This document shows positions 4,089 to 46,794 of a DNA stretch of 64,000 nucleotides, piece after piece (position 1 is the stretch's first letter; each line of letters begins with the position of its first letter). Source of the DNA: Opitutaceae bacterium (GTDB lineage Bacteria; Verrucomicrobiota; Verrucomicrobiia; Opitutales; Opitutaceae); assembly GCA_015075305.1 (NCBI GenBank), contig JABTUS010000007.1, forward strand, positions 1 through 64,000, given 5' to 3'. The position numbers were made by a program, and so were the translations under genes. The notes below the pieces were generated by a model, which searched no databases, was not told where the DNA came from, and saw nothing but the letters and a program-made list of their open reading frames with translations.

Positions 4089-4149
4089 GTACCACGATGC
4101 CGATGAACCGCATGCGCCGCGACTCCACCAGGGGAGGATTGTTCGAGCG

Positions 4150-21430: not shown

Positions 21431-21446
21431 TGGACCTTGGCCACGT

Positions 21447-22142: not shown

Positions 22143-22144
22143 GC

Positions 22145-22288
22145 TCAGGGTTGTGTCGCAAGCGGCACGGACTGCACCGGGTTGCGCGCGGCGATGGCGA
22201 ACCATGCGCCCCACATGGCTGCCTGCACGACAAAGGCGGCCACGAACCAGAGCCAGAGCCTCGAACGTTTGGTCCTAGTTTTTGCCAT
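22145..22288 (-). CDS. Small single-span membrane protein in the ccoH position
   Basis: 47 aa: a basic N-terminus 'MAKTRTKRSR' followed by one hydrophobic segment 'LWLWFVAAFVVQAAMWGAWF' and a short tail. It overlaps the end of ccoG by 14 bp and ends 2 bp before the TauE/SafE gene. In cbb3 clusters ccoH/fixH normally sits between ccoG and the SafE gene, but CcoH is about 150 aa with a periplasmic domain that is absent here. It may be a reduced functional equivalent. Confidence 0.6.
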   Translation of the reverse strand: MAKTRTKRSRLWLWFVAAFVVQAAMWGAWFAIAARNPVQSVPLATQP

Positions 22289-23783: not shown

Positions 23784-23852
23784 GGCTACTCGATGAAGGT
23801 TCGCGAAGGGAATGCGCGCGCGGACTGCGGCGCATTCCCGGTGCCAGACAAG

Positions 23853-24422
23853 TCAGGGCTTGGCGCCCTCAACCGTGATGGGTTCACCCTCCTTGTGTTT
23901 GCTCAGCAGGAATGCGGTGATGTCCGTGACTTTTTTGGCCCCGAGAACCGGTCCCCAGGTGGGCATTCCCTTCTCGGGCACGCCCTTCATGATGACATCG
24001 TGAATCTGCACGGGTCGCCCGCCGTGGATCCATGCGGTGTCGATGAGATCGGGGCCGATGGCTGCGGGCGACTCACTCTTACCGCGTCCGCTGGCCAGAT
24101 GGCAGGCGGCGCAATTGGAGACGAAGGCGGCCTGGCCGGCATCGACGAACGCGGCGGTGTGGCTCATCTTCCAGAGGCTCGCGTCGTCGAGCTTCGTGGC
24201 GGCGAGCCGCTGCGCCTCGATTTTGCCCATGGCGGCGTCGACGACCTCGGTGCTGCTCTGGCCGATGTCGAGCCACTCGTAGTAGGCCCAGTAGCCGATC
24301 CAGAAAACGATCGATGCATACAGCGAATAGAGCCACCAGTTCGGCAGGCGCTTGTCGTATTCCTGGATGCCGTCGAAGACGTGCGGCCGGACGGGTTCGT
24401 CAGGGGGGAGGTTCGGATTCAT
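23853..24422 (-). CDS. ccoP: cbb3 oxidase subunit CcoP, monoheme form
   Basis: 189 aa. The N-terminal segment 'EYDKRLPNWWLYSLYASI' with one transmembrane helix (about 30-50) is typical of CcoP. Only one heme c site, C104-A-A-C-H108, follows. Classical CcoP is about 300 aa with two cytochrome c domains, so one domain is missing. The methionine ligand probably lies in 'VPEKGMPTWGPVL'. It overlaps ccoQ by 4 bp. Confidence 0.9.
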   Translation of the reverse strand: MNPNLPPDEPVRPHVFDGIQEYDKRLPNWWLYSLYASIVFWIGYWAYYEWLDIGQSSTEVVDAAMGKIEAQRLAATKLDDASLWKMSHTAAFVDAGQAAFVSNCAACHLASGRGKSESPAAIGPDLIDTAWIHGGRPVQIHDVIMKGVPEKGMPTWGPVLGAKKVTDITAFLLSKHKEGEPITVEGAKP

Positions 24423-24610
24423 GAGGCTTGGGAGTCGTTCCTTGCCGCGGGCGTTTCCGTTTCAAACGGAAGGTTTTCGAAGTGGTGGGTCTGCTCGCGT
24501 TTCATTCGAAAGGCGCGCCAGAGGATGGCCACGAAGATGGAGACTGCGGTGATGAAGGCCGTGATGGTGAAGACGGCCGCGCTGTCCTCGAGAAGAATGC
24601 GACGAAACAT
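24419..24610 (-). CDS. ccoQ: cbb3 oxidase small subunit CcoQ (FixQ)
   Basis: 63 aa with one transmembrane segment ('AAVFTITAFITAVSIFVAIL') followed by a polar tail ('WRAFRMKREQTHHFENLPFE'). Size, topology and position between the catalytic subunit and ccoP match CcoQ, which stabilises the CcoP interaction. Sequence similarity alone is weak, as is usual for this subunit. Confidence 0.78.
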   Translation of the reverse strand: MFRRILLEDSAAVFTITAFITAVSIFVAILWRAFRMKREQTHHFENLPFETETPAARNDSQAS

Positions 24611-24622
24611 GGCGAGGGTGGG

Positions 24623-33301: not shown

Positions 33302-33377
33302 GGACGCAAGGACTGACGGAGGACGCAAGGACAACTGGAGGACGCATGGACAACTTGAGGGCGGATGGGCATGATTT
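33302..33377. repeat. 19-bp tandem repeat, four units
   Basis: Units starting at 33302, 33321, 33340 and 33359 share ggacgcaaggac-type sequence. The first three are nearly identical and the fourth is diverged. It ends about 107 bp before the trehalase start. Confidence 0.75.
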
Positions 33378-33484
33378 GGACAGGGGGTGCACTCTGTCGG
33401 GGGCTGCGATTTTTGCGGCGCGCTGGGGATTCGAAGGTGTTCCCTTTTGCCCGCATTTGTGCATTCGATGGCGGGCGAATTTTC

Positions 33485-34723
33485 ATGAACATCCACGACG
33501 CCATCTCCAGCATCCGGCGGCATACTGACGCGCATTGGGAGCGGACTTTCCGCGACTCCCGTGGCGAGTCCGCCGAGGAATTTCCGCTGCCGCATCCGCA
33601 CACGGTGCCTTCCACCGACCCGAGCATGTGGCTGTTCTTCTATTGGGACACCTACTTCACCAACCTTGGGCTGCTGCGGCAGGGGCGTCTCGCCCAGGCG
33701 GTCAACAACGCCAACAATGTCATCCACTGCATCGAGGAGCTCGGCTTCGTGCCCAATATCTCCGTGCGCATCGCGCACAATCGTTCGCAGATTCCGGTGT
33801 CGGCTCCCCTTTTCGAGGACATCTTTCACCACATGAAGGATCTCACCTGGTTGCGCCGCGCCTATGCCGCGCTTGGCAGGGAATACGCGTTCTGGATGGC
33901 GATGCGCCTGGCGCCGAATGGTCTGAACACCTGCGGCACGCATGCGGATCCGGTGACGCTTGCCGACTTCCACCACGTCATCAGTTTCCGCCTGCGCGAC
34001 ATTCCCGAGGAGCCGGTCGAGCGGCTCCAGTACCTGCGTCACAAGATGGCGGAATGCGAGGTCTGGGACTTCAATCCGCGGTTCGACCAGCGCGCCGCGG
34101 ACTTCAATCCCGTCGACACCAATGCCGCCTTGCACCGCTTTGAAACGATCGCCGCCGATTTTGCCGCAACGCTGGGTCTTTTCGGAGAGGAAACCCTCTG
34201 GCGAGCACGGGCCTTCCGGCGTCGCGAACTCATTGATCGTTTTCTCTGGAACGAATCCCGCGGCTTCTACTTCGACCACGACTGGGCCCGCGGAATCCAA
34301 GGTGGAGTCGTTTCAGCCGCCGCCTGCTTCGCGCTGTGGTCGGGCGTGTGCTCCGACGCGCAGGCCGCCGCTCTGGTGAGGAATCTCCCTCTGATCGAAC
34401 GTGAACACGGGGTGATCACCTGTGCGGAGGGCAGCAACCGATCGGCGAACACCTACCAGTGGGACGCCCCGAATGCCTGGCCGCCTGTCCAGACGGCGGC
34501 GATCATGGGTCTGCTGCGCCACGGCTACAAAACCGAGGCGAAACGCATCGCGGAAAAGTTCATTCGCACCTGCGCTCGCAATCTCTCCTCAACCGGAAAG
34601 CTCTGGGAAAAGTACAATGCGCTGACCGGCGGCATCGATGTCGCCGACGAATACAAGATGCCGCAGATGATGGGCTGGACCGCGGGCGGATGTCTGCATG
34701 CGGCCGAGGTCATTGAAGGCTGA
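33485..34723 (+). CDS. treA: Alpha,alpha-trehalase, GH37 family, probably cytoplasmic
   Basis: 412 aa without a signal peptide. GH37 motifs are present: 'FYWDTYFTNLGLLRQGR' at about 52-68, 'AHNRSQIPV', the general-acid region 'CEVWDFNPRF' (D195), 'NPVDTNAAL', the substrate motif 'YQWDAPNAWPPVQ' and the base region 'LWEKYNALTGG' (E375) with 'MGWTAGGCL'. It hydrolyses trehalose to glucose. It is shorter than the E. coli enzymes (about 550 aa). The ATG at 33485 starts just before the first conserved helix. Confidence 0.87.
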   Translation: MNIHDAISSIRRHTDAHWERTFRDSRGESAEEFPLPHPHTVPSTDPSMWLFFYWDTYFTNLGLLRQGRLAQAVNNANNVIHCIEELGFVPNISVRIAHNRSQIPVSAPLFEDIFHHMKDLTWLRRAYAALGREYAFWMAMRLAPNGLNTCGTHADPVTLADFHHVISFRLRDIPEEPVERLQYLRHKMAECEVWDFNPRFDQRAADFNPVDTNAALHRFETIAADFAATLGLFGEETLWRARAFRRRELIDRFLWNESRGFYFDHDWARGIQGGVVSAAACFALWSGVCSDAQAAALVRNLPLIEREHGVITCAEGSNRSANTYQWDAPNAWPPVQTAAIMGLLRHGYKTEAKRIAEKFIRTCARNLSSTGKLWEKYNALTGGIDVADEYKMPQMMGWTAGGCLHAAEVIEG

Positions 34724-34820: not shown

Positions 34821-35165
34821 TCAACCCGCCGAGTTTTCGAGAAACAGTCTGCCTCCCTCGGCTGTCAGGCGAAGTCCGAGTTTTGCACCGGCTTCATCGA
34901 GCGCGGCGCGGAGCATTTCGATCGGGTCCCGGCTCACGGTGAGGCGTCGCATGAGTCCGTCAGCCTTCTGTGTGCCGAGCGTGAGCGTGACCTTCAGGCC
35001 TCGGCGCTTGGCGGAGAACTTCTGCCCGTCGGGCAGCGCGACGCCGGCCTTGAGCGGTTTCAGCCAGGCATCGACGTAATGAACGCCGATGCCGGAGCGG
35101 TCGTTCTTTTCGACCCGCAGTTGATCGGTCGCGGTGGTGTTTTCAGCGCAGAGTTCGAATTTCAT
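34821..35165 (-). CDS. Uncharacterised small protein, last gene of corrinoid operon
   Basis: 114 aa, predicted soluble, alpha/beta in composition, no recognised family. It begins 'MKFELCAENTTATDQLRVEK' and has a basic middle ('GQKFSAKRRGLKVTLTLG'). The start overlaps the upstream gene stop by 4 bp, so it belongs to the operon. A longer frame would begin inside the neighbour. A role as a chaperone or regulatory subunit for the methyltransferase system is possible only by context. Confidence 0.6.
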   Translation of the reverse strand: MKFELCAENTTATDQLRVEKNDRSGIGVHYVDAWLKPLKAGVALPDGQKFSAKRRGLKVTLTLGTQKADGLMRRLTVSRDPIEMLRAALDEAGAKLGLRLTAEGGRLFLENSAG

Positions 35166-35626
35166 GGAGAGGAGTTGAGGGCCAGGTGGAGGGTTTGAAG
35201 AACAGCGCGCCACTTGTGCGCGCGGGAGGTCTCCCTGCAGAGGCAGCCGTCCGGGCTCGTTTCCTGCGCCCAGGTCAGGACTTCCGCGAGCGGTTGTCCG
35301 AGGAGCGGACGCTCGTGGAGGAGGGTGGCAAGCAGTCGCGCCTCATCGGCGCGGGCCTCGCATTGCTCGTGGAAATTGACGTCGCCGGGCGCGGGGGTGC
35401 ATTCGAGGCCAAGAATGCGGTGGCCGGTCCCGGTGGATGAAAGTCGCACACGGTAGAGCACGTGAAAGGCGACATTGCCGCAGGTGCTTCCCTCGAGTCG
35501 GAACTCCGCCGCGATCGATCCGTCTCCGGCGCGGATGAGCGTCAGGTTCTCCGCCGCCCAGCGCCGCAGTGCCCGGAGGGGAAATGCGTACGCGGGTGCT
35601 GTTGTGACCGTGTCGCCGGGAGTCAT
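35162..35626 (-). CDS. Unassigned Cys-containing protein with faint NifU/IscU-like layout
   Basis: 154 aa. The order of features faintly recalls the IscU/NifU scaffold N-domain: 'LEGSTCGN' near residue 50, a strand-rich stretch, a second Cys in 'LGLECTPAPG', the helix 'LLGQPLAEVLTWAQ' and a terminal 'DGCLCRETSRAHKWRAVLQT'. The central Cys context and the family glycine do not match cleanly, so this is only a lead. An iron-sulfur role would suit a partner of the RACE ferredoxin or the MetV domain. It has 4-bp overlaps on both sides. Confidence 0.45.
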   Translation of the reverse strand: MTPGDTVTTAPAYAFPLRALRRWAAENLTLIRAGDGSIAAEFRLEGSTCGNVAFHVLYRVRLSSTGTGHRILGLECTPAPGDVNFHEQCEARADEARLLATLLHERPLLGQPLAEVLTWAQETSPDGCLCRETSRAHKWRAVLQTLHLALNSSP

Positions 35627-36210
35627 GACGTCGGGAGCGCCACCAGCGCGACCTGTGATTTGCGGGGCATGAGCATGCCGCTCTCCAGCGCTTGAAGTGG
35701 ACCGGGCAGCGACACCTTGCGGGTGATGAGGCTGAGCACGCGTGGCATCTGGTCAAGGGGCCATTCGCGGTAGCCGGGGCACCAGAACTCCCTTGCGCGG
35801 AGGCTCAAGCAGGTCTCGCGCAGCAGGGTTTCAACGATTGCGGAGGCGTAGCACTCGAGGAAGTAGTACAGGTCTGGTTCGTCGGCGTTCCATCGCGCCG
35901 CGGCTTCCGCCTCCGATTCCGGTCCCGCGCTGACCGCGATGAGAATGCCATTCCGCCTGCCGCCGATGCGGGCGGCCAGCGCGGGTGTAAAGAAGAGTTC
36001 CCCGTCGAGGAAGAGATTGTCGCCCGTCGTCGCGATCGTCACTGCAGTGGTTACGACCCAGGGCCTGCTGTTTGCCGCGTGCCACTCGCGCGCATAGGTC
36101 GCGTTTTCCCCGAGAGGGCCGTCGAGCGGACGACTCGCCGGCAAACGCAGGAAGCGGCGGTAGCAGGCCTCGGTGATCTCTGGCACGCGGGTGACTGGCG
36201 TTTCCGTCAT
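35623..36210 (-). CDS. MetH-activation-domain-like protein (vitamin B12 methyltransferase activation)
   Basis: 195 aa stand-alone protein resembling the activation domain of cobalamin-dependent methionine synthase. That domain binds S-adenosylmethionine during reductive methylation of inactive cob(II)alamin. The C-terminal block 'FWCPGYREWPLDQMPRVLSL' followed by 'ALESGMLMPRKSQVALVAL' corresponds to the SPGYGDWPLE and 'MMxPxKS' pattern of the family. The N-terminal half is less conserved. Its neighbour upstream is a RACE-type ATP-dependent activator, so the operon encodes two possible routes for corrinoid activation. Confidence 0.72.
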   Translation of the reverse strand: MTETPVTRVPEITEACYRRFLRLPASRPLDGPLGENATYAREWHAANSRPWVVTTAVTIATTGDNLFLDGELFFTPALAARIGGRRNGILIAVSAGPESEAEAAARWNADEPDLYYFLECYASAIVETLLRETCLSLRAREFWCPGYREWPLDQMPRVLSLITRKVSLPGPLQALESGMLMPRKSQVALVALPTS

Positions 36211-37862
36211 GGCGTCACCCCATCCGCGCTGGTGGATAGCGGACCGTACTGGCAGCCCGTCACAAAGTGATCGAAGAATTCGGGATCGGTCTCGAGCTCC
36301 ACATGGTCGACGCGTGCGACCAGATCTTCCAGCTCGCGTCGCCGGCTTGCTGAAAGCAGGGCCGTCGTCGCGCCCTCAATGGCTGCATTGCCGACAACCA
36401 CGATCCTTTCGTCCGGAAGATCCGGGATGAGGCCGATGCGCCGGGCGGCGTCGCGATTGAGGTGTCGCCCGAAGCCGCCGGCGAGGTAGAAGCGGTCGAG
36501 CTGGGCGAGGGATATTCCGTAGTGTTTGGCGACAATGCTCAGGCCGGCGACGTTTGCGGCCTTGGCCTGGGCGAGTTCGCTGATGTCGCTTTCGTGGATC
36601 GCGATGCCGGCGGGTTCATCGACGACGAATTGGCCTGCGCCATCGGTGTAGCGCCCGAATTCATTCATCCTACCCGTACGCAGAAACTCTGAGAGAAGAT
36701 CGATCAGCCCGGATCCGCAGATTCCCCTGGCCGGACCGTTGCCGATCACCTCGCGCTCCAGGACGGATCCGTCGTCGCCAAGCGCGACATGGGCGATGGC
36801 TCCATCAAGACCCGGCATCCCGTGGCGGATGCCGCGGCCCTCGAAGGCCGGACCTGCGGGGCAGGATGCGCAGAGGATCCTGTGGCGGTTGCCGATGAAC
36901 AACTCGGTGTTGGTCCCGATGTCCATGATGGCGACGATCTCGTCGGACTTGTGCGGGGCGATGGCAAGGAGGCAGGCTGCGGCGTCCGCGCCGACGTGGC
37001 CGCTGACGAGTGGCAGTCCGCAGATGCGCGCCGCCGGGTGCAATGGGAGGCGAAGGGAGCGGGCGCTGCACTCGAGTGCGGTGGTTGAACGCCGGCCGTC
37101 GCGATACTCATGCTCCGTGGATGATCGGTAGGGCTTCTGTCCGATCGATGCCACATCGAGTCCAAAAAACAGATCGCGCATGGTCGGGTTTCCGACGACC
37201 ACGAGTTCGAAGATGGAATCACCAGGGACCGGAAACTCGGCGATGGCGCGTCCGAGGTAGCCGAGCAGCGTGCGTTGGAGGAGACGACCGCGGCGATCGG
37301 TGTCGAACTGGATGCGCGACATCACGTCGCTGCCGCCGAAGCGCTGCGGATTTTCAAACGCCGCGGTTGCGACGATGGCGCCGGTCTCAAGGTTCACGCA
37401 GCGGACCACCACCGTTGTCGTGCCGAGGTCCATGGCGAGCCCGTGAATGGGACCGGTGTGATTCGCAACCTCGCGGCCGTCGATGAACACGCGCGAGCCG
37501 TCACGGGTGACGGCGGGATCTGGTGTTTCAAGACGACTGATGGCCGGCAGTTCGACAGCGGCCTGCTCCACCTGCATTGCGCTGCGGTGGAGCGTATGGG
37601 CCTCGATGCCGGGATCGGGCGCGTCGCTTGCCAGCCGCGCGCAGCAGGAAAGTCGGAATGCGCCGTTCAGATGGGACTCCTCCGGCGTTCGGCGGCTGAG
37701 TTGGTCGGCGCCGGCGGTGATCTCAATCAGGCATTCGCGGCATTTTCCCTGCGCGCGGCACGATGTCGGCACCTTGAAACCCGCGCGTGTGGCGGCCGCG
37801 AAGAGGGATTCGTTGCGTTCGAGGGCGACACGCTGGCCGTTGAGTTGAAAGGATGATGCCAT
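36207..37862 (-). CDS. RACE protein: ferredoxin-ASKHA reductive activator of corrinoid enzymes
   Basis: 551 aa. An N-terminal 2Fe-2S domain has the C35-x5-C41-x2-C44 spacing ('TSCRAQGKCREC') and a fourth Cys at 73 or 74. The rest is the DUF4445/ASKHA fold with 'GLAMDLGTTTVVVRCV', 'ELVVVGNPTMRDLFFGLD' and 'IVAIMDIGTNTELFIGN'. Such proteins (RamA, AcsV and MtvC-associated activators) reduce Co(II) corrinoid to Co(I) using ATP. It overlaps the activation-domain gene by 4 bp and starts one base after the amidohydrolase stop. Confidence 0.92.
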   Translation of the reverse strand: MASSFQLNGQRVALERNESLFAAATRAGFKVPTSCRAQGKCRECLIEITAGADQLSRRTPEESHLNGAFRLSCCARLASDAPDPGIEAHTLHRSAMQVEQAAVELPAISRLETPDPAVTRDGSRVFIDGREVANHTGPIHGLAMDLGTTTVVVRCVNLETGAIVATAAFENPQRFGGSDVMSRIQFDTDRRGRLLQRTLLGYLGRAIAEFPVPGDSIFELVVVGNPTMRDLFFGLDVASIGQKPYRSSTEHEYRDGRRSTTALECSARSLRLPLHPAARICGLPLVSGHVGADAAACLLAIAPHKSDEIVAIMDIGTNTELFIGNRHRILCASCPAGPAFEGRGIRHGMPGLDGAIAHVALGDDGSVLEREVIGNGPARGICGSGLIDLLSEFLRTGRMNEFGRYTDGAGQFVVDEPAGIAIHESDISELAQAKAANVAGLSIVAKHYGISLAQLDRFYLAGGFGRHLNRDAARRIGLIPDLPDERIVVVGNAAIEGATTALLSASRRRELEDLVARVDHVELETDPEFFDHFVTGCQYGPLSTSADGVTP

Positions 37863-37863
37863 G

Positions 37864-39159
37864 TCACATGCCCGGCTGGCCCGGATCGTCGCCTCCGGAA
37901 AGAATGACGCCGTCGAAACAAACGACTGCGGGCGCGCGCAGGTGCCGGACCGACTGCAGCACCGGTGCTTCGGTCAGGATGAATCGTGCGGGGCAGCCGG
38001 GTGCAATTACTCCCGCCGGCTCTGAGGGATGCAGCCGGGCGGAGGCGTCGCCGGTTGCGGAGCGAAGCACGCGCTCAGCCGACAGACCGGCCTGCTCCAT
38101 GAGCTCGAGTTCGCGGAGGAATCCGTGCCCATGGGCGACACCGTGGGACCCGGCGTCGCTGCCGGCGACGATTCTCACACCGAGGTCAGCCGCGTCCGAG
38201 AGGCGGGCGGCATGGGCCTCGAGGATGCGCTGCAGGTTCGCGCGCACGGTTTCGCTCCAACCGAGGATGTCGGCGCGGTCGAGTTGAAACTGGACGGGCG
38301 CGAGGGTGGGCACCCAGGCGATGTCGAGATCGCGCATGAGCGCGAGCTGGTCGCGATCGACGAAGTACGCGTGCTCAATCGTGTCGACGCGTGCGGCGAT
38401 GCAGTTGTCCACACCATCGTGTCCCGAACAGTGCACCATCGTCTGACGTCCCTGCGCGCGGGATGCGGCGACGGCGCGGGTCAGTTCTTCGGCGGGCATT
38501 TGGGGCCTGGCCGTGACGGCGCCCTTTTCGAAGTTGATGATGCCGGTGGCGAGCAGTTTGATGTGGTGCGCTCCTTGTGCGATGCGTGCGGCGACCGCGG
38601 CCTCGATGCCGCCCTGGTCCTCGAGGGGCGTAGCCATGAAGGATCCATAGCGGCCCTGATGATGAATCGCGGCGCCGGGACTGTCGACGCAGGGCATGGC
38701 ACCCCGCTCAGCCGAGCGGCAGCGCCGCTGGAGGCGAAGGCCGACGCCATTGCGGTCGCCGGCATCGCGCACGGCGACGATGCCGAGTCGCAGCAGGCGC
38801 TCGAGCCGGAACTCCGCGCGCGCGAACAGTTCATCGTCGTCGAGCTTGAGCTGGTCGGCGCGGCGCTCGGGAGCGAGTTCGCCGCCCTCCAGGAAAAGGT
38901 GGGCATGGGCTTCGACCAGGCCGGGCAGGACGGTGCAGTCCGGCAGATCGAGATCGGGGGAAGTCTGACCCGGGCGCACGAGTGCGGCTGCAGGGGTGTC
39001 GCCAACGTGCCGGATGTTCTGGCGATTGAAGACCAGATGGGAAACGCCGCGACTCTCGTGTCCGTCAAAAAGCCTTCCGACGCGCAGCCAGACCGTGTCG
39101 CCGCCGATGCGCCGCACGATGGCGGAAAGCGAGTCCAGGCTGGAGGGCGCGGGGTTCAT
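37864..39159 (-). CDS. Amidohydrolase (imidazolonepropionase-like) within the corrinoid operon
   Basis: 431 aa metal-dependent hydrolase. The HxH motif is in 'LVEAHAHLFLEGG', a metal-bridging Lys candidate in 'HHIKLLATGI', His ligands in 'QTMVHCSGHDG' and 'VDTIEHAYFV', and the Asp in 'RIVAGSDAGSHG'. The start at 39159 overlaps the upstream gene by 4 bp. A long in-frame extension upstream is antisense-like and rejected. Its presence among methyl-transfer genes suggests that the substrate or product also needs hydrolytic opening. The substrate is unknown. Confidence 0.88.
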   Translation of the reverse strand: MNPAPSSLDSLSAIVRRIGGDTVWLRVGRLFDGHESRGVSHLVFNRQNIRHVGDTPAAALVRPGQTSPDLDLPDCTVLPGLVEAHAHLFLEGGELAPERRADQLKLDDDELFARAEFRLERLLRLGIVAVRDAGDRNGVGLRLQRRCRSAERGAMPCVDSPGAAIHHQGRYGSFMATPLEDQGGIEAAVAARIAQGAHHIKLLATGIINFEKGAVTARPQMPAEELTRAVAASRAQGRQTMVHCSGHDGVDNCIAARVDTIEHAYFVDRDQLALMRDLDIAWVPTLAPVQFQLDRADILGWSETVRANLQRILEAHAARLSDAADLGVRIVAGSDAGSHGVAHGHGFLRELELMEQAGLSAERVLRSATGDASARLHPSEPAGVIAPGCPARFILTEAPVLQSVRHLRAPAVVCFDGVILSGGDDPGQPGM

Positions 39160-40091
39160 GCGTCGAGGTAGTCGTTGCAGATTTCCATGACGGCGGACGC
39201 CTGGCGGAATCCGGCATCCTCGACGGATTCTCCGGCCTGCGGGCGCCCGGCTTCGAGCGCTGCGGCGAGTCGCGCGACGATCGGATGATCGTCGGGGAGA
39301 GGCACGGCGTTGGCCTCGAAATTGGCCAGGGCAAAGTCGAGACCCACGCGCGAGGCAAGGGTGAGGTAGGCGCGTTCGAGGAGCGGCTTCGCGGCCTTGG
39401 GCGTGCCCCACGCGAAGTTTGAGAGACCGACAGAGTAGTGGATGCCGCGAAGATCGGGATCCGCGGTGCACAGCCGCATGGTGTCGAGACCGATGTTGAC
39501 AAGTCCGTAGGTGTCGGCGCCGACGGGCGCCAGTCCGGGGTCGACGATGATGTCGTCGAGCATGCGTCCGGCGCGGGTGACCAGGAGATCGGCGAAGCGC
39601 CGCACGGTTTCATGGCTCTGCCGCGGGTCGAGACACTGGGCGGAGCCGCCGCCAGGCTTGAAGCATTCGGAGGCCATGACGATGCAGCGCATGTCGTGCT
39701 CGCGCACGAGCTCAAGCATCTCGTCGAGGTTGTTGCGCGAGGCGGCGAGGGAGTTGAAGACCGGCTTGGCGCGGCACCGGGAGCGGTCGAACACGCGCAG
39801 CGCGGTGCGATGATAGACGATGCTGGGATTGTCGAAACTCAGTGGGATGTCGGTCGCGTCCTGGATGGCCGGAATGACGCGCGGGAGAAACTCCAGCATT
39901 TCCTCCTGTCGCACGGCGATGCGCTGCGTGCCGTCGAGGTTGAGGTTGACGATCTCGGCACCGCCCTCGGCCTGCAGGCGCGCGAGGTGCTGGTAGCCGG
40001 AGATGTCGCGGGATTCCCATGCGCGGCGTGCGCGTGCGTAGGCATTGTTGATGAGTTCGCCGATGATGCGGATTTTTGGAGCAGGGGTCAT
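39156..40091 (-). CDS. Pterin-binding methyltransferase (MeTr/DHPS-like)
   Basis: 311 aa TIM-barrel of the pterin-binding family that moves methyl groups between methyl-THF and a corrinoid protein. It starts 'KIRIIGELINNAYARARRAW', has 'GAEIVNLNLDGTQR' and 'IPLSFDNPSIVYHRTALRVF' (folate-site region) and 'DDIIVDPGLAPVGAD', all seen in MtvB- or AcsE-like proteins. The Asn/Asp pattern fits MeTr rather than dihydropteroate synthase, and the corrinoid protein in the same operon supports this. It overlaps both neighbours by 4 bp. Confidence 0.88.
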   Translation of the reverse strand: MTPAPKIRIIGELINNAYARARRAWESRDISGYQHLARLQAEGGAEIVNLNLDGTQRIAVRQEEMLEFLPRVIPAIQDATDIPLSFDNPSIVYHRTALRVFDRSRCRAKPVFNSLAASRNNLDEMLELVREHDMRCIVMASECFKPGGGSAQCLDPRQSHETVRRFADLLVTRAGRMLDDIIVDPGLAPVGADTYGLVNIGLDTMRLCTADPDLRGIHYSVGLSNFAWGTPKAAKPLLERAYLTLASRVGLDFALANFEANAVPLPDDHPIVARLAAALEAGRPQAGESVEDAGFRQASAVMEICNDYLDA

Positions 40092-41743
40092 GAAGGGGGT
40101 GGGGCCATTGACTCTGTGCTTGCCGGTGGCGGCGTCGGAGGCGGGGAGGAAATGGCTGCCTCACCGCGTCCTGTCACCGGCACGGGCGCAGCGGCGGGCG
40201 GGACGAAGAGCCTGTTGCCGAGGTGGTCGCGGCCGTGCCAGGTGTTCGCCCAGCTCGACGTGCCGCGCAGCGACTGGTTCTGGATCACAGGGGCGTGATT
40301 GAGAAGCTCGTGGGCGCGGCCCTCGTGGGCGAGCCGGTCATAGGCGCGGGACCAGATGCATTCGTAGTCCTCGACCTCGCAGAGACCGTCGCGCGTGCCG
40401 CCGCACGGTCCGTTGCGCTGATTCTTCGCGCAGGAGGATTCCGGGCAGAGGTGGGTGATTTCGGGAAGGGAGCAATCGCCGCAATCGCGGCAGTCGAAGA
40501 GCATGGACTTCGAGACCTTCTCGACCATGCGCAGGAGCGCGGGGCCCTGCCGGGGATCGCGCGCCGAGGCGGTGATCTTCTTCCCGATATTCCAGAGACC
40601 GCGGCCGGGCGTGAACATCGCGGCATGGGCGAAGCGGGCGAACCGGTAGGTGTAGGTGACATTGCGCGACGAGCGCGGAACCGCGCCAAAGTGCGGGCGG
40701 CCGGCGGCGTCGGCCAGGCCTGTCGCCGGATCCTCGGGAAATAGGAAAAATTCTCCGGGGCGCGAGAAGCGGATCTCCCGCGCAAAATCCCTCCATGCGT
40801 CCGGCGGGAAGGCATCGACGCGGGCGAGAACCTCGTCGAGTTCGACGCGGGTGTGGATTCCACCGAGGTACGCGCCGCGGTAGCCGAGTCCCTTGTAGAC
40901 CGCAATCTGCCGGGCGGCGAGCTCGATGAACCATGCGCGGCCGCGGCCGGGCTCGCGTTCCTTTTCCTCGCAGAGCGCCGCGAGTTCGTCTGAAATGACG
41001 ACGCCCGGAATGCGCTGCGTGCGGAAGAGCCGGGCGACGGCGGGATTGAGCACGTAGACATTGCCGATCAGCGGAACGTGCCCCCAGCCGCGCTGCTGCA
41101 GCCAGAGAATGAGCTCGTGAATCTTGCGCGAGTCGTAGCCGATCTGATTCACGATCCAGCGTGCACCGCACTCGAGTTTCTTCTCCAGCTTGAGCAACTG
41201 CGGGACCACCTCGTTTTCGTGGAGCTTGAAGTTTGTGACGACGCAGGCGGGAAAGAACTCCGTTGCGCCGAGCCGGGACTTCTGGCGTGCGCCCGGCCGG
41301 GTGATGTCGAGGCCGGCGTTCAGGTTGGCGAGCAGGACGAGCAGGCCGACCGAATCGATGTCGAAGACCGGTTTTGCGCCGCCGGCGAGGCCCGGACCCG
41401 GATAGTCGCCTGAAAGCACGAGAAGATTGTGCAGGCCCTCGGTGGCCAGGTGCCAGGCTTCGGACTCGACGCCGTTGCGGTTGAAGTCCTTGCAGGAGAG
41501 ATGGACGACCACATCACGTCCCGATGCGCGCACGATGCGGGCGAGCGCGGCGGGGGCGAGCTGTGGATTGCCGCCGGCGTTGTCGGTGACGGACACCCAG
41601 TCGACCCGGTCGTGGGAGGCAAGCTCCTCGGCAAATGCGAGGGTCCGGGCGCTGCGGGTTTCGGTGACGGTGCCGCGGGTGGAGACCAGTTCGACCCCGA
41701 TCACAAAATCGCCACTTTTCTCCAGCTTGTCGCGCAGGGTCAT
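40088..41743 (-). CDS. metF: Methylene-THF reductase MetF with C-terminal MetV-type zinc/Fe-S domain
   Basis: 551 aa. Residues 1-310 form the MetF TIM barrel ('VDWVSVTDNAGGNPQLAP', 'HLSCKDFNRNGVES', 'NLLVLSGDYPGPG'). The C-terminal part from about 400 has a cysteine cluster 'FDCRDCGDCSLPEITHLCPE' then 'SSCAKNQRNGPCGG', the MTHFR_C (MetV) domain usually encoded separately. The tail is Pro-rich. In this operon the reductase would run in the oxidising direction, turning methyl-THF into methylene-THF. No flavoprotein partner such as RnfC2 is present. Confidence 0.9.
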   Translation of the reverse strand: MTLRDKLEKSGDFVIGVELVSTRGTVTETRSARTLAFAEELASHDRVDWVSVTDNAGGNPQLAPAALARIVRASGRDVVVHLSCKDFNRNGVESEAWHLATEGLHNLLVLSGDYPGPGLAGGAKPVFDIDSVGLLVLLANLNAGLDITRPGARQKSRLGATEFFPACVVTNFKLHENEVVPQLLKLEKKLECGARWIVNQIGYDSRKIHELILWLQQRGWGHVPLIGNVYVLNPAVARLFRTQRIPGVVISDELAALCEEKEREPGRGRAWFIELAARQIAVYKGLGYRGAYLGGIHTRVELDEVLARVDAFPPDAWRDFAREIRFSRPGEFFLFPEDPATGLADAAGRPHFGAVPRSSRNVTYTYRFARFAHAAMFTPGRGLWNIGKKITASARDPRQGPALLRMVEKVSKSMLFDCRDCGDCSLPEITHLCPESSCAKNQRNGPCGGTRDGLCEVEDYECIWSRAYDRLAHEGRAHELLNHAPVIQNQSLRGTSSWANTWHGRDHLGNRLFVPPAAAPVPVTGRGEAAISSPPPTPPPASTESMAPPPS

Positions 41744-41762
41744 GGCGTCGCGGGCGCGCCGG

Positions 41763-42407
41763 TCAGGCGGCGTTGAGAAACTTCAGGAACAGCTCGACGC
41801 TGCTTGGGGCGTCGGCGCCATAGCCATCGGCTCCGATTTCGTCGGCGAACATGCGGTTGACCGGAGCGCCGCCGACGGCGATCTTGATCCTGGCGAGATC
41901 GGGATGCTTCTGAAATTCGTCGATCACGACTTTCATGTAAGGCATGGTGGTGGTGAGCAGCGCGCTCATGCCGACGATCTGGGCCTGATGGGTGCGGGCG
42001 AACTCGATGTATTTTTCAACGGGCTGGTCGACGCCCATGTCGACAACCTTGAAGCCGGCGCCCTCGGCCATCATGCACACGAGATTCTTGCCGATGTCGT
42101 GGAGGTCGCCCTTGACGGTGCCGATGACGAGGGTGCCCCGCGGGGGATTCCTTGCGGCGTCCGCGGTGAGCAGCGGCTTGAGCACCGCCATGCCGGCCTT
42201 CATGGCGCGGGCGGCGACGAGGACCTCCGGGACATAGAGGATGCTGTACTTGAAGTCCTCGCCGACGACGGCCATGCCTGCGATGAGGCCCTCGTTGAGG
42301 ACTTCGTCGACCGGGCGACCCTCGGCGAGCGCTTCGCGAACGAGTCGCTCCACCTCCCTGGCGTTCCCCTCGTAGAGGAACTGGTTGATCTGGGCGTAGT
42401 CTGGCAT
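41763..42407 (-). CDS. Corrinoid (B12-binding) methyl-carrier protein
   Basis: 214 aa of the MtbC/MtaC type. A four-helix cap ('INQFLYEGNAREVERLVREA') precedes the Rossmann B12-binding domain with 'GTVKGDLHDIGKNLV', where H103 is the cobalt lower ligand in D-x-H-x-x-G. 'GMSALLTTTMPYMKVVIDEF' and 'IKIAVGGAPVNRMFADEIGA' complete the family pattern. It should shuttle the methyl group from the UroD-like protein to the pterin methyltransferase. The ATG at 42407 gives the canonical start. A longer frame runs into the upstream gene. Confidence 0.94.
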   Translation of the reverse strand: MPDYAQINQFLYEGNAREVERLVREALAEGRPVDEVLNEGLIAGMAVVGEDFKYSILYVPEVLVAARAMKAGMAVLKPLLTADAARNPPRGTLVIGTVKGDLHDIGKNLVCMMAEGAGFKVVDMGVDQPVEKYIEFARTHQAQIVGMSALLTTTMPYMKVVIDEFQKHPDLARIKIAVGGAPVNRMFADEIGADGYGADAPSSVELFLKFLNAA

Positions 42408-42415
42408 GGGATGAT

Positions 42416-43468
42416 TCAGTTGCTGGCGTCGAGACAGGCCTGTTTGACGGCGAGGATGTTTTCGGACGGCGTGCCGAAGGGGATCACGGCGGTGCCCATG
42501 ATGAAGCCCGGGATGTCGCGTCCGCGCTTCACCTCGGCGCGGGCGACGTCGTAGATCTTCTCCGGCGAGGATTTTTCCAGCAGGCGCGGGGACACATTGC
42601 GCCGGAACGCCCTTCCCGCCTCGCGCACGGCGGGAGTCCATTCATCGAAGTCGGCCGTGAAGTCGCAGAGCAGATTGTTGGCTCCCGTGCGGCATTGCAG
42701 CTCCGCGATCGGACTTGTGTTGCCGCCGATGATGAGCGGCACATCGCGCAGACCCTGGGATGCGGCCCAGGTGACGAACTGCTGTGTCACGGGAAGGACA
42801 AACTCCTCGTACATGGGAGGGGAGAGCAATTCGGGCGAGGCCTGGGAATCGAAGATGATCACGTCGACACCGACGTCCATGTAGGCGCGTGCGAAGGTGC
42901 GGATGACACGGCCGCAGAATTCCAGACAGGAGCGGACCCATGCGGGATCGTCGAGGCATGCGAGGAAGAGCGCCTCGGCGCCGACGAGCGAGATGGCGAG
43001 GGAGAACGGACCCGAGATGGCGCCGCGCACCCAGAAGTCGTCGCCCACGGCGCGGCGCACATTGCGCGCGGCCTCCAGGTTGACGGGCATGCGGCCGTCC
43101 GTGAGCGGATTGGGCACGCGGAGCTTGGAAAGGTCGTCGCCGACATGCACCATGTGATGCCCCGGCTTGATGCCCGGGATGCTGGTGTCGAGTCCGTCGT
43201 AAAATGAAACGCGGCAGCCGCAGGCCTCCGCCTCGAGGTTGTAGACGTCGACGCCGATGACGAGGGCGTCGGGCCGGATGGTTTCGTACTCGGCGAGAAC
43301 GGCGCGGGTGAGCAGGCCGGCGTCGCGCGAGATGTCGGACGGCGTGGAATGAATGAACCAGGCCTTGTGTTCGTAGATGGCCGGAAGAAACAGCGGCACC
43401 GGGCGCGGGGACTGGCAGCGCAGCACGGATTCGACGTCGGAGCGGGTGGCGGAGGAAGGGGCGTGCAT
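42416..43468 (-). CDS. UroD-family methyltransferase-like protein lacking the zinc HxC motif
   Basis: 350 aa. The uroporphyrinogen decarboxylase fold also serves corrinoid methyltransferases (MtaA, MtbA, CmuA). Family segments include 'WVRGAISGPFSLAISLVGAE', 'DVIIFDSQASPELLSPPMYE' and a C-terminal 'GFIMGTAVIPFGTPSENILA'. Where MtaA-type enzymes have the zinc ligands H-x-C, this protein has I246-I-G248 ('VPLIIGGNTSPIAEL'), although a later Cys ('NNLLCDFTADF') remains. First gene of the operon, with its start 24 bp from the divergent AraC gene. It may transfer a methyl group from a substrate that needs no zinc-thiolate activation. Confidence 0.85.
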   Translation of the reverse strand: MHAPSSATRSDVESVLRCQSPRPVPLFLPAIYEHKAWFIHSTPSDISRDAGLLTRAVLAEYETIRPDALVIGVDVYNLEAEACGCRVSFYDGLDTSIPGIKPGHHMVHVGDDLSKLRVPNPLTDGRMPVNLEAARNVRRAVGDDFWVRGAISGPFSLAISLVGAEALFLACLDDPAWVRSCLEFCGRVIRTFARAYMDVGVDVIIFDSQASPELLSPPMYEEFVLPVTQQFVTWAASQGLRDVPLIIGGNTSPIAELQCRTGANNLLCDFTADFDEWTPAVREAGRAFRRNVSPRLLEKSSPEKIYDVARAEVKRGRDIPGFIMGTAVIPFGTPSENILAVKQACLDASN

Positions 43469-43492
43469 GAATTTTCGGGGTCGATTGAACCC

Positions 43493-44443
43493 ATGCTAGC
43501 GGAAACGGCGGCGCGCGTCTTGGCGGATGGGGCTTGCGACGATTGGCAAATCGGGCAATCTGGCGCTGTGCGTGTCACTTCTCCCGTACTGGTCAGGCTG
43601 CCGCCGGGTGGACTCCGGTTTGCGGAAAGCGCGCATGCCATGGGTTTCTCAATGGCGGAGCGGGCAGATCCATTTCACAAGCTGGTCTATGTGCTGGCGG
43701 GAAGGGCGGAGCTGGTGATGGCGGGGCGGCCGGTGGTGGTTGCGTCCGCCGGCACGATACTGATCGTGCCGCGGCTGGCGCGGCATGCGCTGCGCGACAT
43801 CGAGCCCGCGTCGCTGCTGCTGATGTGCTTTTCGGACGCGTGGCTGGCGGGAACGCCCGGGCTGGGTGAGTTGTGGGCGACGCTTGTGCGCGATGGTGAT
43901 GCGCGCTGGCCGCTGGTGCGGGTGAGGCGGCTCAGGATCGAGGCGCTGTGGCGGCGCGGGCTGTTTGAGCAGAATCGCGCACAGATTGGAGCGGGTGCAC
44001 TGGCGATGGCCGCGGCGAATGAGATACTTGCGGTGATCGCCCGTGCCCGCGCGCTGGCCCGTGCGGAGTCGGCGGAGGCGCGTGTGCGCGCGGTGGCCGC
44101 GGAGGTGGGGGACAGCTTTGTGGAGAACTGGACGGTGGATCTTGCGGCGGCGCGGGCCGCGATGTCGCGGCGGGGATTCACGGAGCGCTTCCGCGTCGAG
44201 ACGGGTGAAACCTTCTGGGAGCATCTCGAGCGCCTGCGGGTGGCGCATGCGGCGCAGCTCCTGCGGCGCGGGGAGCACACGGTGCTGGGAGTGATGTTTT
44301 CCTCGGGGTTCAACGACCTCTCGACCTTTTATCGCGCGTTCAAGCGCCACCACGGAACATCACCCAAACGCTGGATGGAGGCGGAGGCCGCGGATCGGCG
44401 TTCGGAGGTGAAGCACGGATCGACGCGGATACGAGCCGGATGA
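43493..44443 (+). CDS. AraC-family regulator divergent from the corrinoid operon
   Basis: 316 aa. The N-terminal cupin-like sensor is seen as 'FHKLVYVLAGRAELVMAGRP' and 'AGTILIVPRLARHALRDIEP'. The C-terminal HTH region has 'FRVETGETFWEHLERLRVAH' and 'VMFSSGFNDLSTFYRAFKRH'. Start codons of this gene and the operon are separated by 24 bp, so both promoters overlap the neighbouring coding starts. It is the obvious candidate regulator of the operon, sensing the methylated substrate or a product. The ATG at 43493 was preferred because upstream codons are antisense to the methyltransferase gene. Confidence 0.85.
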   Translation: MLAETAARVLADGACDDWQIGQSGAVRVTSPVLVRLPPGGLRFAESAHAMGFSMAERADPFHKLVYVLAGRAELVMAGRPVVVASAGTILIVPRLARHALRDIEPASLLLMCFSDAWLAGTPGLGELWATLVRDGDARWPLVRVRRLRIEALWRRGLFEQNRAQIGAGALAMAAANEILAVIARARALARAESAEARVRAVAAEVGDSFVENWTVDLAAARAAMSRRGFTERFRVETGETFWEHLERLRVAHAAQLLRRGEHTVLGVMFSSGFNDLSTFYRAFKRHHGTSPKRWMEAEAADRRSEVKHGSTRIRAG

Positions 44444-44705: not shown

Positions 44706-45806
44706 TCATCTCAGCTGCCGGATTGTTTTTCCCGGGAGGAATTTTGGGAAAACCAGATTGGGTTCGGGTTGAAGGTTGCCTTGCTCCACCATCTGCAGCA
44801 TCAGGCGGGAGAGGCGGTGGGCCAGCGCGCCTTCCTCCAGTACATAGTGGGCGATGGGCGGGCTCACGATGCCGAAGCTCTGATCGTAGTCTCTGGCGAT
44901 GAGTGACACCGTGTCCGGCACCGAGAGGCCGCGTTTCAGGAGGTAGATGATGACTATGAGCACGTGCTGCGGCTTCGCGATGAGCAGGGCGGTGGGGGCG
45001 TGGGCGGACTTGAACAGGGCGTCGAGTTTCGACGTGATGCTGGCGGCGGTGCCATTGTGCCGGACAATCGTTGCGCGGGCCTCGCCCTGCTGATGCTGGG
45101 AGACCGCCTCATTGAAGCCGGTTTCGCTGGCGAGGTCACCCGCCATTCCTGAATTGGGCACGACCAGCGCCAGGCACTGGTGGCCGCGTCCCAGAAGCGT
45201 GCCCGTGGCGTGGCGGCAGACCGATCGGTAGTCGATGTCGAGGGAGGGCAGCCTGACCTGCGGATGGCAGGATCCCAGCACGAGGGCAGGGAGCGAATTG
45301 TCGGAGAACCACTGCTGCAGCTCCTTGTTCACGGAGATCAGGACGCAGCAGAACACGCGGTTCTGGCGGACAAATTCGCGGACCTTGCGCAACTGGGTGC
45401 GTTCCCCGGCGGGCGGGCACACCAGCACCTCCGTCGCGAAACCCCGCTCCGCCAGGTGGGCGCGCATTTCGCTGATCAACAGGAAAGTCACGTAGGCGAG
45501 GTGCGTGACCGGCTCCGGCGCGATCAGGCCGACCAGCCGGTTCTGCTCCGCGGGCTTGCGATGTCCGCTGGCGAGCAGCCGGTTGCGCCTCCCCTGGTGG
45601 ATCTCAATCAGTCCCTCCTTGGAAAGCAGGTGCAGCGCGGTGCGGATCGTCGGGCGGCTCACGTGAAACATGTCGCAGAGGCGGCGCTCGCTCGGCAGGC
45701 AGTCCTTCCAGACATTGTCCGCAATGGCCTGACGAATGGCGCTGGCTGCCTGGGCCGAAAGGGAGACGCGCCTGGGCAGCTCGAAGGAGTGGGGAGAGCT
45801 GTTCAT
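44706..45806 (-). CDS. GntR-LacI chimeric transcriptional regulator
   Basis: 366 aa. The N-terminal winged helix is GntR-type ('SAQAASAIRQAIADNVWKDC', 'SERRLCDMFHVSRPTIRTAL'). From about residue 90 there is a LacI/periplasmic-binding-type effector domain ('RLVGLIAPEPVTHLAYVTFL', 'LPALVLGSCH', 'SIDYR'-like segment). AraR-type regulators share this design and bind sugars. It is divergent from the DHDPS-family aldolase gene, and a 12-bp element close to its start recurs upstream of the TonB receptor at 53103, which suggests that it controls this utilisation locus and itself. Confidence 0.87.
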   Translation of the reverse strand: MNSSPHSFELPRRVSLSAQAASAIRQAIADNVWKDCLPSERRLCDMFHVSRPTIRTALHLLSKEGLIEIHQGRRNRLLASGHRKPAEQNRLVGLIAPEPVTHLAYVTFLLISEMRAHLAERGFATEVLVCPPAGERTQLRKVREFVRQNRVFCCVLISVNKELQQWFSDNSLPALVLGSCHPQVRLPSLDIDYRSVCRHATGTLLGRGHQCLALVVPNSGMAGDLASETGFNEAVSQHQQGEARATIVRHNGTAASITSKLDALFKSAHAPTALLIAKPQHVLIVIIYLLKRGLSVPDTVSLIARDYDQSFGIVSPPIAHYVLEEGALAHRLSRLMLQMVEQGNLQPEPNLVFPKFLPGKTIRQLR

Positions 45807-45808
45807 AA

Positions 45809-45820
45809 GATATTACCAGT
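45809..45820. promoter_or_regulatory. Candidate operator gatattaccagt, site 1
   Basis: An exact 12-mer shared with 52998-53009. It lies 2 bp upstream of the regulator start codon and 47 bp before the aldolase start, so binding could repress both divergent genes. It is only weakly palindromic. Confidence 0.5.
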
Positions 45821-45867
45821 GGATGGAATTGGGGATCGGCGGGACGGTCGTGCAATGTTGCATCTCA

Positions 45868-46794
45868 ATGAACAGAACGCCATCCGTGCACATCTGGTCC
45901 GCAACGCCCACGCCGCTGATGGCGGATTTGTCCGTCGACGTGGCGTCGGTCAAAAGAATGACCCGCGATGCGGTGGACAGCGGATTCGAGGGGGTTTTTC
46001 TGGGCGGCACCTGCGGCGAGGGTCCCTGGCTGCCTGACACCGAGCGGGTCCGCCTGGTTGGCGCGGTTGCGGGGGCTGCGGAGGGAAAACTCCGGATAGC
46101 CGTGCAGGCGACCGACAACTCGGTTCCCCGGATCCTGGCAAACATCCGGCAGGCGGCGGACGCGGGGGCGGACTATGCGGTCATTGCGGCTCCTGCGACA
46201 TTCATGAACGCCACGGCGGATCGCATCGTGGCGCTTTTTGTCGAGGCGGCGGATGCGAGCCCCATACCCGTCGGCATCTATGATCTTGGGCGCCATCGCC
46301 CTGTCGTGATCCCCGAGGAGCGGCTTAAGGAAGTCTATCTGCACCCGAACGTCCGTCTGGTGAAGGACAGCTCCGGATCGCCCTCGCGGCGGGCCGCCGC
46401 GCTGGAGGCGAGGAAGGCCAAACCGGGCCTGCAGTTGTTCAATGGCGACGAGTTTCGCTGCCTGGAATACCTGGAAGCCGGTTACGATGGAATTCTGTTT
46501 GGCGGGGCGATCGCCACGGCGGCGCAGTTGCACGAGATTGTGGCCGCCTTCTTGCAGGGACGACTGGATGATGCGCGGCGCATGGATGCGGAGATGAGAA
46601 AGGCGCTGTTCGGCATCTATGGCGGCGAGAAGATTGCGTGCTGGCTCACCGGTCTCAAGTACTACCTGGTGAGGCGGGGGATCTTCGCCTCGGTGTCCAG
46701 TTACCTCGGGTATCCCCTGACCGATGACTGCCGGGCCTTCATCGAGGAATACGCGCGGGGCATGCCGGCGACCAGTGCCTCCGGGACAGGGTGA
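45868..46794 (+). CDS. DHDPS/NAL-family aldolase or dehydratase
   Basis: 308 aa class I TIM barrel. The family motif GGTCGEG is at 46-52, the catalytic tyrosine Y138 in 'PVGIYDLGRH', and the Schiff-base lysine K166 in 'NVRLVKDSSGS'. The family includes dihydrodipicolinate synthase, N-acetylneuraminate lyase, KDG aldolase and keto-deoxy sugar acid dehydratases. The regulator and oxidoreductases next to it favour sugar-acid catabolism over lysine synthesis, but the substrate cannot be read from the sequence. The ATG at 45868 fits the family N-terminus. Confidence 0.85.
   Translation: MNRTPSVHIWSATPTPLMADLSVDVASVKRMTRDAVDSGFEGVFLGGTCGEGPWLPDTERVRLVGAVAGAAEGKLRIAVQATDNSVPRILANIRQAADAGADYAVIAAPATFMNATADRIVALFVEAADASPIPVGIYDLGRHRPVVIPEERLKEVYLHPNVRLVKDSSGSPSRRAAALEARKAKPGLQLFNGDEFRCLEYLEAGYDGILFGGAIATAAQLHEIVAAFLQGRLDDARRMDAEMRKALFGIYGGEKIACWLTGLKYYLVRRGIFASVSSYLGYPLTDDCRAFIEEYARGMPATSASGTG

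Follow-up and report, generated by a model that had tools for sequence, protein, structure and literature searches.

Corrinoid (B12)-dependent demethylation is known mostly from strict anaerobes, with aromatic or amine substrates, and methyl ethers are abundant in plant matter. Acetogens possess three- or four-component corrinoid O-demethylases (MtvABC, VdmB/OdmB), and MtoABCD is the archaeal example. Type 1 mlp clusters, as far as the available text on them goes, carry two or three Mlps, at least Mlp2 and Mlp3, and belong to obligate-anaerobe hosts (PMC10418091), while the corrinoid system of Ruegeria pomeroyi, in the available part of its description, doubles as a methionine synthase (PMC12478193). 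The subject here is a nine-gene operon on the minus strand (43468–34821) of a 64,000-nucleotide stretch of Opitutaceae DNA (contig JABTUS010000007.1). This whole stretch is called the window, and its genome (4.87 Mb in 17 contigs) is referred to as G000. On balance, the operon is read as encoding a demethylase that uses B12 to act on a small methyl ether, with an amidohydrolase placed in the tetrahydrofolate (THF) branch.

Conservation of the nine-gene operon

The operon is real and conserved. All nine open frames listed on one strand by an earlier, sequence-only reading of the window are confirmed, and 4-bp overlaps do prevail: they occur at five of the eight junctions (genes 3/4, 4/5, 6/7, 7/8 and 8/9), the other three being gaps of 8, 19 and 1 bp. 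The nine genes are inferred to lie on one transcript. Gene families, order, conservation and linkage are read directly from the sequence. Pfam and NCBIfam bear out the UroD, corrinoid, MetF-MetV, pterin, amidohydrolase and RACE assignments of that reading as well as the divergent AraC regulator (Table 1). Its label for gene 7, MetH activation-like, holds as a resemblance, and the two small proteins it left unassigned (genes 8 and 9) match neither database.

The search for the same gene order that the sequence-only reading proposed was made by scanning one genome per species (84,980 species) with patterns from amidohydrolase seeds, which gave at least 50 loci from named genomes. All nine genes, with their order kept, are present at 9 of the 50 amidohydrolase loci listed (L052–L058, L061 and L084), and this recurrence is more than chance. 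Locus L059 ends at a contig edge, and L060 has no recognisable genes 2, 8 and 9. Three of the entries are not independent of others, since L060 is on the same contig as L038, L086 on the same contig as L049, and L088 shares its assembly with L060. Gene presence was scored by tblastn or HMM because the ORF caller picks shadow frames in places. The trio of MetF-MetV, pterin methyltransferase and amidohydrolase is kept in Acidobacteriaceae, Phycisphaerae, Pirellulales, KSB1, Hydrogenedentota and others. Among the 21 listed loci of at least 19 kb, 17 have a UroD, corrinoid or RACE gene, and four (L073, L082, L086, L101) have none.

The UroD form of the window is termed type A here. At E 1e-70 it is found in 7 of the 387 genomes of the phylum, the window's own and six others, and the fetched 20 kb of those six hold no full operon. 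A sister system, type B, has a corrinoid protein 64–71% identical to that of type A, while the UroDs of the two are only 18–24% identical. The contigs compared span 8–64 kb for type A loci and 11–21 kb for type B loci.

Among the individual genes, gene 1 scores 105.2 bits against the NCBIfam model mtaA_cmuA (TIGR01463), below the cut-off of 235.4. Gene 2 has the GDLHDIG (DxHxxG) motif, is 98% identical to its counterpart in L052, and scores 187 bits against NF047996, under the cut-off of 370. Gene 4 matches the structure of a methyl-THF:corrinoid/Fe-S protein methyltransferase (2e7f, E 4e-12). From overlaps and orthologues, the probable start of gene 9 is 35165 (114 aa) and not 35213, and that of gene 5 is 39159 and not 39471 of a long GTG frame. 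The AraC start may be the ATG at 43481, or a GTG near 43568 as the orthologues suggest. A consensus scan of the intergenic region between AraC and the operon gave no sigma-70-like site, and promoter and terminator scans gave no useful site. tRNA and Rfam scans of the window gave no match.

Table 1. Genes of the operon and its divergent regulator in the window
Feature	Position	Strand	Supporting match
Gene 1, UroD-superfamily methyltransferase I (type A), 350 aa, probable	42416..43468	-	PF01208 1.6e-37
Gene 2, corrinoid protein (MtgC/MtbC-like), 214 aa	41763..42407	-	PF02310, PF02607
Gene 3, MetF-MetV fusion (MTHFR + DUF5981)	40088..41743	-	PF02219 3.2e-11, PF12225 4.9e-24
Gene 4, pterin-binding methyltransferase II (corrinoid:THF), predicted	39156..40091	-	Pterin_bind PF00809 1.5e-10
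Gene 5, amidohydrolase, distinct clade	37864..39159	-	Amidohydro_1 7.1e-25
Gene 6, RACE reductive activase of corrinoid proteins	36207..37862	-	Fer2 PF00111, Raco_middle PF17651, RACo_C_ter PF14574
Gene 7, MetH activation-domain-like protein	35623..36210	-	profile match 1j6r E 6.8e-7
Gene 8, 154 aa, conserved cysteines	35162..35626	-	no Pfam/NCBIfam match
Gene 9, 114 aa, conserved	34821..35165	-	no Pfam/NCBIfam match
AraC-family regulator, divergent from operon	43481..44443	+	PF12833

Methyl transfer and corrinoid activation

The operon has the layout of UroD-type corrinoid O-demethylases, with a UroD methyltransferase I near a corrinoid protein, a THF methyltransferase and a RACE gene. Each catalytic step given here, its direction and the substrate are predictions from gene families and context. 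Gene 1, a probable substrate:corrinoid methyltransferase, would demethylate the substrate and load its methyl group onto the Co(I) corrinoid of gene 2, and gene 4 would pass it from there to THF. Gene 3 would run as a methyl-THF oxidase and yield methylene-THF, which FolD and PurU, encoded elsewhere in G000, could carry on to formate. AraC would induce the operon in response to the methylated compound. Families and context support the demethylation route through corrinoid and THF to methylene-THF that the sequence-only reading had proposed, with its own reductive activase, and corrinoid-to-THF demethylation is regarded as very likely. An FdhF/YdeP-family molybdopterin oxidoreductase lies one gene past the operon in the type A-like loci L059, L061 and L084 (3 of 55 listed loci, with an NCBIfam assignment for L061 only) and is a candidate formate dehydrogenase. 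In L050, a divergent relative, positions 775–5424 hold a run of five genes, MetF, EtfB, EtfA, pterin methyltransferase and amidohydrolase (the MetF and Etf assignments are by eye), which suggests that methyl-THF oxidation passes its electrons to Etf.

Genes 6 and 7, probably together with genes 8 and 9, would reductively reactivate oxidised corrinoid, which would suit oxygen-exposed bacteria. A cbb3-oxidase-like cluster at 19058–26944 of the window (P-type ATPase, CcoG-like and fused CcoN/CcoO-like genes, read by eye) suggests that the host probably respires oxygen. Gene 6 combines 2Fe-2S and RACo domains and is the sole RACo_C_ter match in G000. In the gene 7 family, none of the 13 members has a Pfam match, PF02965 included; the homologues of genes 7 and 8 are fused in type B loci. 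In 18 homologues of gene 8 the cysteines C49, C89, C128 and C130 are invariant and C76 is nearly so. The structure models of genes 8 and 9 (pLDDT 89.6 and 88.6) have no confident match in the PDB, and gene 8 has no Foldseek match at E<=0.001. An IscU/NifU scaffold, suggested for gene 8 by the cysteines and the element order, is a tentative reading, since its VIA rows are mixed (RnfG, NADH oxidase, and SufU 8odq at Z 3.7 among unrelated rows). A gene 8 homologue (41%) also adjoins a DesA-like/PurU cluster in L162 (7473–7931, minus strand), a stretch with no corrinoid or RACE match, and gene 8 may therefore not be a corrinoid activator only.

The amidohydrolase

Gene 5 is rather likely part of the folate branch and not tied to the substrate, because its clade tracks the pterin gene, occurs with mixed UroD types and was not found in three type B genomes. 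A pterin gene lies upstream on the same strand at 41 of the 47 listed loci with at least 1.2 kb of upstream sequence, within 300 bp at 38 of them, and both the pterin gene and MetF-MetV lie upstream at 33 of the 41 listed loci with 3 kb. Over 31 loci, the pairwise distances of the amidohydrolase and of the pterin enzyme correlate at 0.94, a value as high being reached in none of 500 permutations; shared descent contributes to this correlation. The clade accompanies different UroD types in several phyla. Some points weigh against this placement. The remaining six of the 47 loci have no upstream pterin gene (L062, L066, L073, L076, L097, L101), and all seven seeds behind the scan patterns had one.

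The metal site (HxH, Lys, His, His, Asp) has all six residues kept in 48 of 48 sequences longer than 300 aa. Where the aligned PDB relatives have GGH, gene 5 has GRY, with R170 in 47 of the 48 and Y171 in all of them. Gene 5 was also considered as a prolidase and rejected: it scores 116.6 bits against the Xaa-Pro dipeptidase model NF051886, far below the cut-off of 500, and the GGH motif is missing. Besides its full-length amidohydrolase, L048 has a second, partial match (5013–5366, 54% over 118 aa) some 5 kb away.

The sequence-only reading had the amidohydrolase processing the substrate or the demethylated product. Substrate hydrolysis is the known work of the superfamily and the PDB relatives of gene 5 are prolidase- and ochratoxinase-like, but the opening or hydrolysis of the methylated substrate or its product is considered quite unlikely, as a single amidohydrolase clade goes with UroDs as different as types A and B, and is also kept beside MetF-MetV and the pterin gene on UroD-less contigs of 12–18 kb (for example in the Acidobacteriaceae loci L063, L064, L065, L070 and L077). 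At E 1e-60 it was not found in the type B genomes G013, G172 and G418. The fetched 20 kb of each of these hold UroD, RACE and homocysteine methyltransferase, with a corrinoid gene seen only in G418, and have no MetF-MetV or pterin match. A different possibility, rated rather unlikely, is that gene 5 acts on the folate tail or on off-path folate (deglutamylation, or clean-up of 5-formyl-THF), or in corrinoid maintenance, and not in formyl-THF hydrolysis. The ochratoxinase-type relatives cleave aryl-CO-NH-amino-acid bonds, and by analogy pteroylglutamate would offer such a bond; the retention of R170 and Y171 in place of GGH means that specificity probably differs from that of the peptidases. 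Loss of THF, however, would be harmful.

For the exact reaction within the folate branch the preferred guess, an unlikely one when taken by itself, is that gene 5 hydrolyses a one-carbon folate, either formyl- or methenyl-THF. It would then hold the place that PurU has in parallel AraC/MetF-MetV/DesA-like/PurU clusters of relatives. PurU is found at 9 of 10 DesA-like loci versus 1 of 55 listed amidohydrolase loci (L075), and DesA at none of those 55, so by position the amidohydrolase holds PurU's place. Confidence in the proposal is low, since the genome encodes PurU and FolD at other sites. FolD scores over its cut-off in 9 of 9 checked genomes and PurU in 8 of 9, leaving no folate step missing, and in L075 PurU adjoins the MetF-MetV gene of an amidohydrolase locus; both facts tell against the proposal. 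In its simple form, the replacement of a missing folate enzyme by gene 5 is rejected on the FolD and PurU counts. Fhs is over cut-off in 3 of the 9 genomes and was not found in G000.

Methyl donors and relation to known systems

The neighbours of the type B genes point to a sugar acid. A GH115 alpha-glucuronidase is present at 4 of 11 type B loci, at none of 17 type A loci (window included) and at none of 13 other corrinoid loci, and for a UxuA-family mannonate dehydratase the corresponding figures are 7 of 11, 0 of 17 and 0 of 13 (GH115 assigned by Pfam, as was the UxuA of L069, the locus of Verrucomicrobiae bacterium DG1235). Twelve genomes have a type-B-like UroD, six strong at 712–759 bits and six weaker at 240–280 bits. 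In all six strong genomes, which belong to the window's family, GH115 lies within ~39 kb of UroD, and in four within ~10 kb. Relatives that lack type B can have GH115 too, and the gene is therefore not a specific mark of this system. Locus L143 has, on one strand, GH115, a LacI-type regulator (by eye), UxuA, RACE, genes 7/8, gene 9, UroD, corrinoid protein, homocysteine methyltransferase and SDR; its GH115 frame also contains a glucuronyl-esterase domain. Three of the six weaker genomes were fetched (L144, L145, L146). In L146 the distant UroD (267 bits) adjoins the glucuronate isomerase UxaC and an MFS transporter, and L144 and L145 have no match to any uronate query. The type B UroD/corrinoid clusters with GH115 and UxuA, or with UxaC in the distant relative, are L039, L040, L042, L143 and L146.

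GH115 enzymes free (4-O-methyl-)glucuronate from xylan. Given this activity and the co-location of GH115 and UxuA, type B is predicted from its gene neighbours to demethylate, probably, 4-O-methyl-glucuronate or a derivative. No description of B12-dependent demethylation of 4-O-methylglucuronate was found in the open-access literature.

Type A has other companions. Homologues of the window's AraC (41–81% identical) occur at 14 of 17 type A loci, at 0 of 11 type B loci and at 0 of 13 other corrinoid loci. Genomes G066 and G427 have the divergent order AraC, then UroD, MetF-MetV and a DesA/LigM-like gene, the G066 protein scoring 567 and 525 bits, under the NCBIfam cut-offs of 800 and 580. In G415 the gene directly downstream of UroD encodes a Rieske/VanA_C protein, and in G126 the corresponding gene is 1.5 kb away on the downstream side; the protein has no NCBIfam match at E 1e-20. 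Four of six stand-alone type A loci thus carry DesA/LigM-like or Rieske/VanA_C demethylase-family genes, and these neighbours suggest a methyl ether, possibly aromatic. A plant-derived methyl ether is given a slight preference as the type A donor; a methoxylated aromatic, specifically, is a tentative possibility, placed ahead of a methylated sugar acid.

Several observations weigh against this assignment. G126 and G415 belong to one genus, the DesA and Rieske proteins score below NCBIfam cut-offs or match none, and no DesA-like gene turns up in G000 at E 1e-50. The HxC zinc motif, presumably characteristic of MtaA/MtbA, is absent from its expected place; 14 of 15 type A and B UroDs have no H.C at all, and the single HSC, in the L053 UroD, is at another place. 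The E-X14-E-X20-H motif, which we take to mark VdmB/OdmB, is absent from all 15 (9 type A, 6 type B). AraC homologues also occur in DesA loci without a type A UroD, so the regulator does not single out this UroD. Type A neighbours also include genes of sugar type (DHDPS-like aldolase, SDRs, GFO/IDH, gluconolactonase, FGGY kinase).

The DesA-like loci form a set of their own. Ten of the 11 other genomes with DesA-like matches were fetched, G510 being left out. These ten loci have no type A UroD. In seven of them PurU immediately follows DesA and in two more it is within ~3 kb, an AraC homologue is present in nine, and MetF-MetV is strong in four and partial in four. These AraC/MetF-MetV/DesA-LigM-like/PurU clusters (L161–L170, Verrucomicrobiota; with an FAH-family hydrolase in L161–L164) are predicted to form an operon that takes methyl groups to formate without a corrinoid and is controlled by a related AraC.

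The neighbours of sugar type raise the alternative of a methylated sugar or sugar acid as the type A substrate, with the operon serving polysaccharide catabolism. It would fit the company of type B (GH115 and UxuA, with UxaC in the distant relative), the DHDPS-like aldolase, SDRs and GFO/IDH of the window, the gluconolactonase and FGGY kinase of L061, and the SSS-type transporters of L052, L056 and L060 (by eye). It is nevertheless held to be somewhat unlikely, as GH115, UxuA and UxaC are found at none of the 17 type A loci, the GH115 match in G000 is only a weaker one (E 6e-52) on another contig, and four of six stand-alone type A loci carry families known for aryl O-demethylation. Much less probable is a role mainly as a split methionine synthase, or in the direction of methylation, as for MtgC/MtgD in Ruegeria. 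A corrinoid protein, a pterin protein, MetF and an activase do make up that architecture in the available text of PMC12478193, and homocysteine methyltransferase is present at 8 of 11 type B loci. It is lacking, however, at all 17 type A loci, and the operon as the methionine synthase of G000 is rejected, since the MetH parts of that genome (the sole PF02574 match and the PF02965 match) lie on another contig, C8.

On the upstream side of the operon, the window has a DHDPS/KDG-aldolase-like gene and, divergent from it, a GntR/LacI-type regulator (44706–46794), and similar regulator/aldolase pairs adjoin the operon in L055 and L062 (aldolase named by eye). Convergent with the operon end is a trehalase-family (PF01204) glycoside hydrolase (33365–34723).

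Taken at its widest, and as a speculation, several phyla would share a B12/folate demethylation core with interchangeable UroDs and an amidohydrolase that hydrolyses one-carbon folates, a role not assigned before, type B acting on 4-O-methyl-glucuronate of hardwood and grass xylan and type A on another plant methyl ether. If true, polysaccharide-degrading Verrucomicrobiota, Acidobacteriota and Planctomycetota would have a route for the methyl groups of xylan and lignin to formate, methionine and CO2, an orphan amidohydrolase clade would gain a concrete place in folate chemistry, and genes 7–9 would offer three small protein families as candidates in corrinoid activation.

The sequence-only reading knew of no described operon with this combination of genes, and the open-access literature likewise yielded no matching description of this variant of corrinoid demethylation, nor one of LigM in Verrucomicrobia. 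With the acetogen O-demethylases the operon has in common the UroD-type methyltransferase I, the corrinoid protein, the THF methyltransferase and the RACE-type activase. It differs in lacking what is presumably the VdmB/OdmB zinc motif, in uniting the amidohydrolase, genes 7–9 and MetF-MetV in one operon, and in its hosts, which do not appear to be known acetogens. UroD-superfamily proteins, a corrinoid protein and Ram/RACE are shared with type 1 mlp clusters, whose examples, in the available text of PMC10418091, have no THF methyltransferase; the operon is not such a cluster, having one UroD-superfamily gene plus the pterin methyltransferase. The MtgBCD/split methionine synthase of Ruegeria pomeroyi, an aerobe, likewise has stand-alone corrinoid and pterin proteins, MetF2 and RamA, but its methyl-donor enzyme is the pfam06253 protein MtgB, and the available text mentions neither a UroD nor an amidohydrolase (PMC12478193).

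Gene 5 shares its family match and metal ligands with the Xaa-Pro dipeptidase 2qs8, Cc2672 (3mtw) and ochratoxinase (4c5y), a group we take to be cog1228-type amidohydrolases, and differs from them by GRY for GGH in the alignments shown and by its genomic linkage to folate and corrinoid genes. The THF-dependent aryl O-demethylases DesA/LigM, which have the GcvT fold, use no corrinoid and were not found in the window's genome at the threshold given above, share both AraC and MetF-MetV with the type A UroD in relatives of the host.

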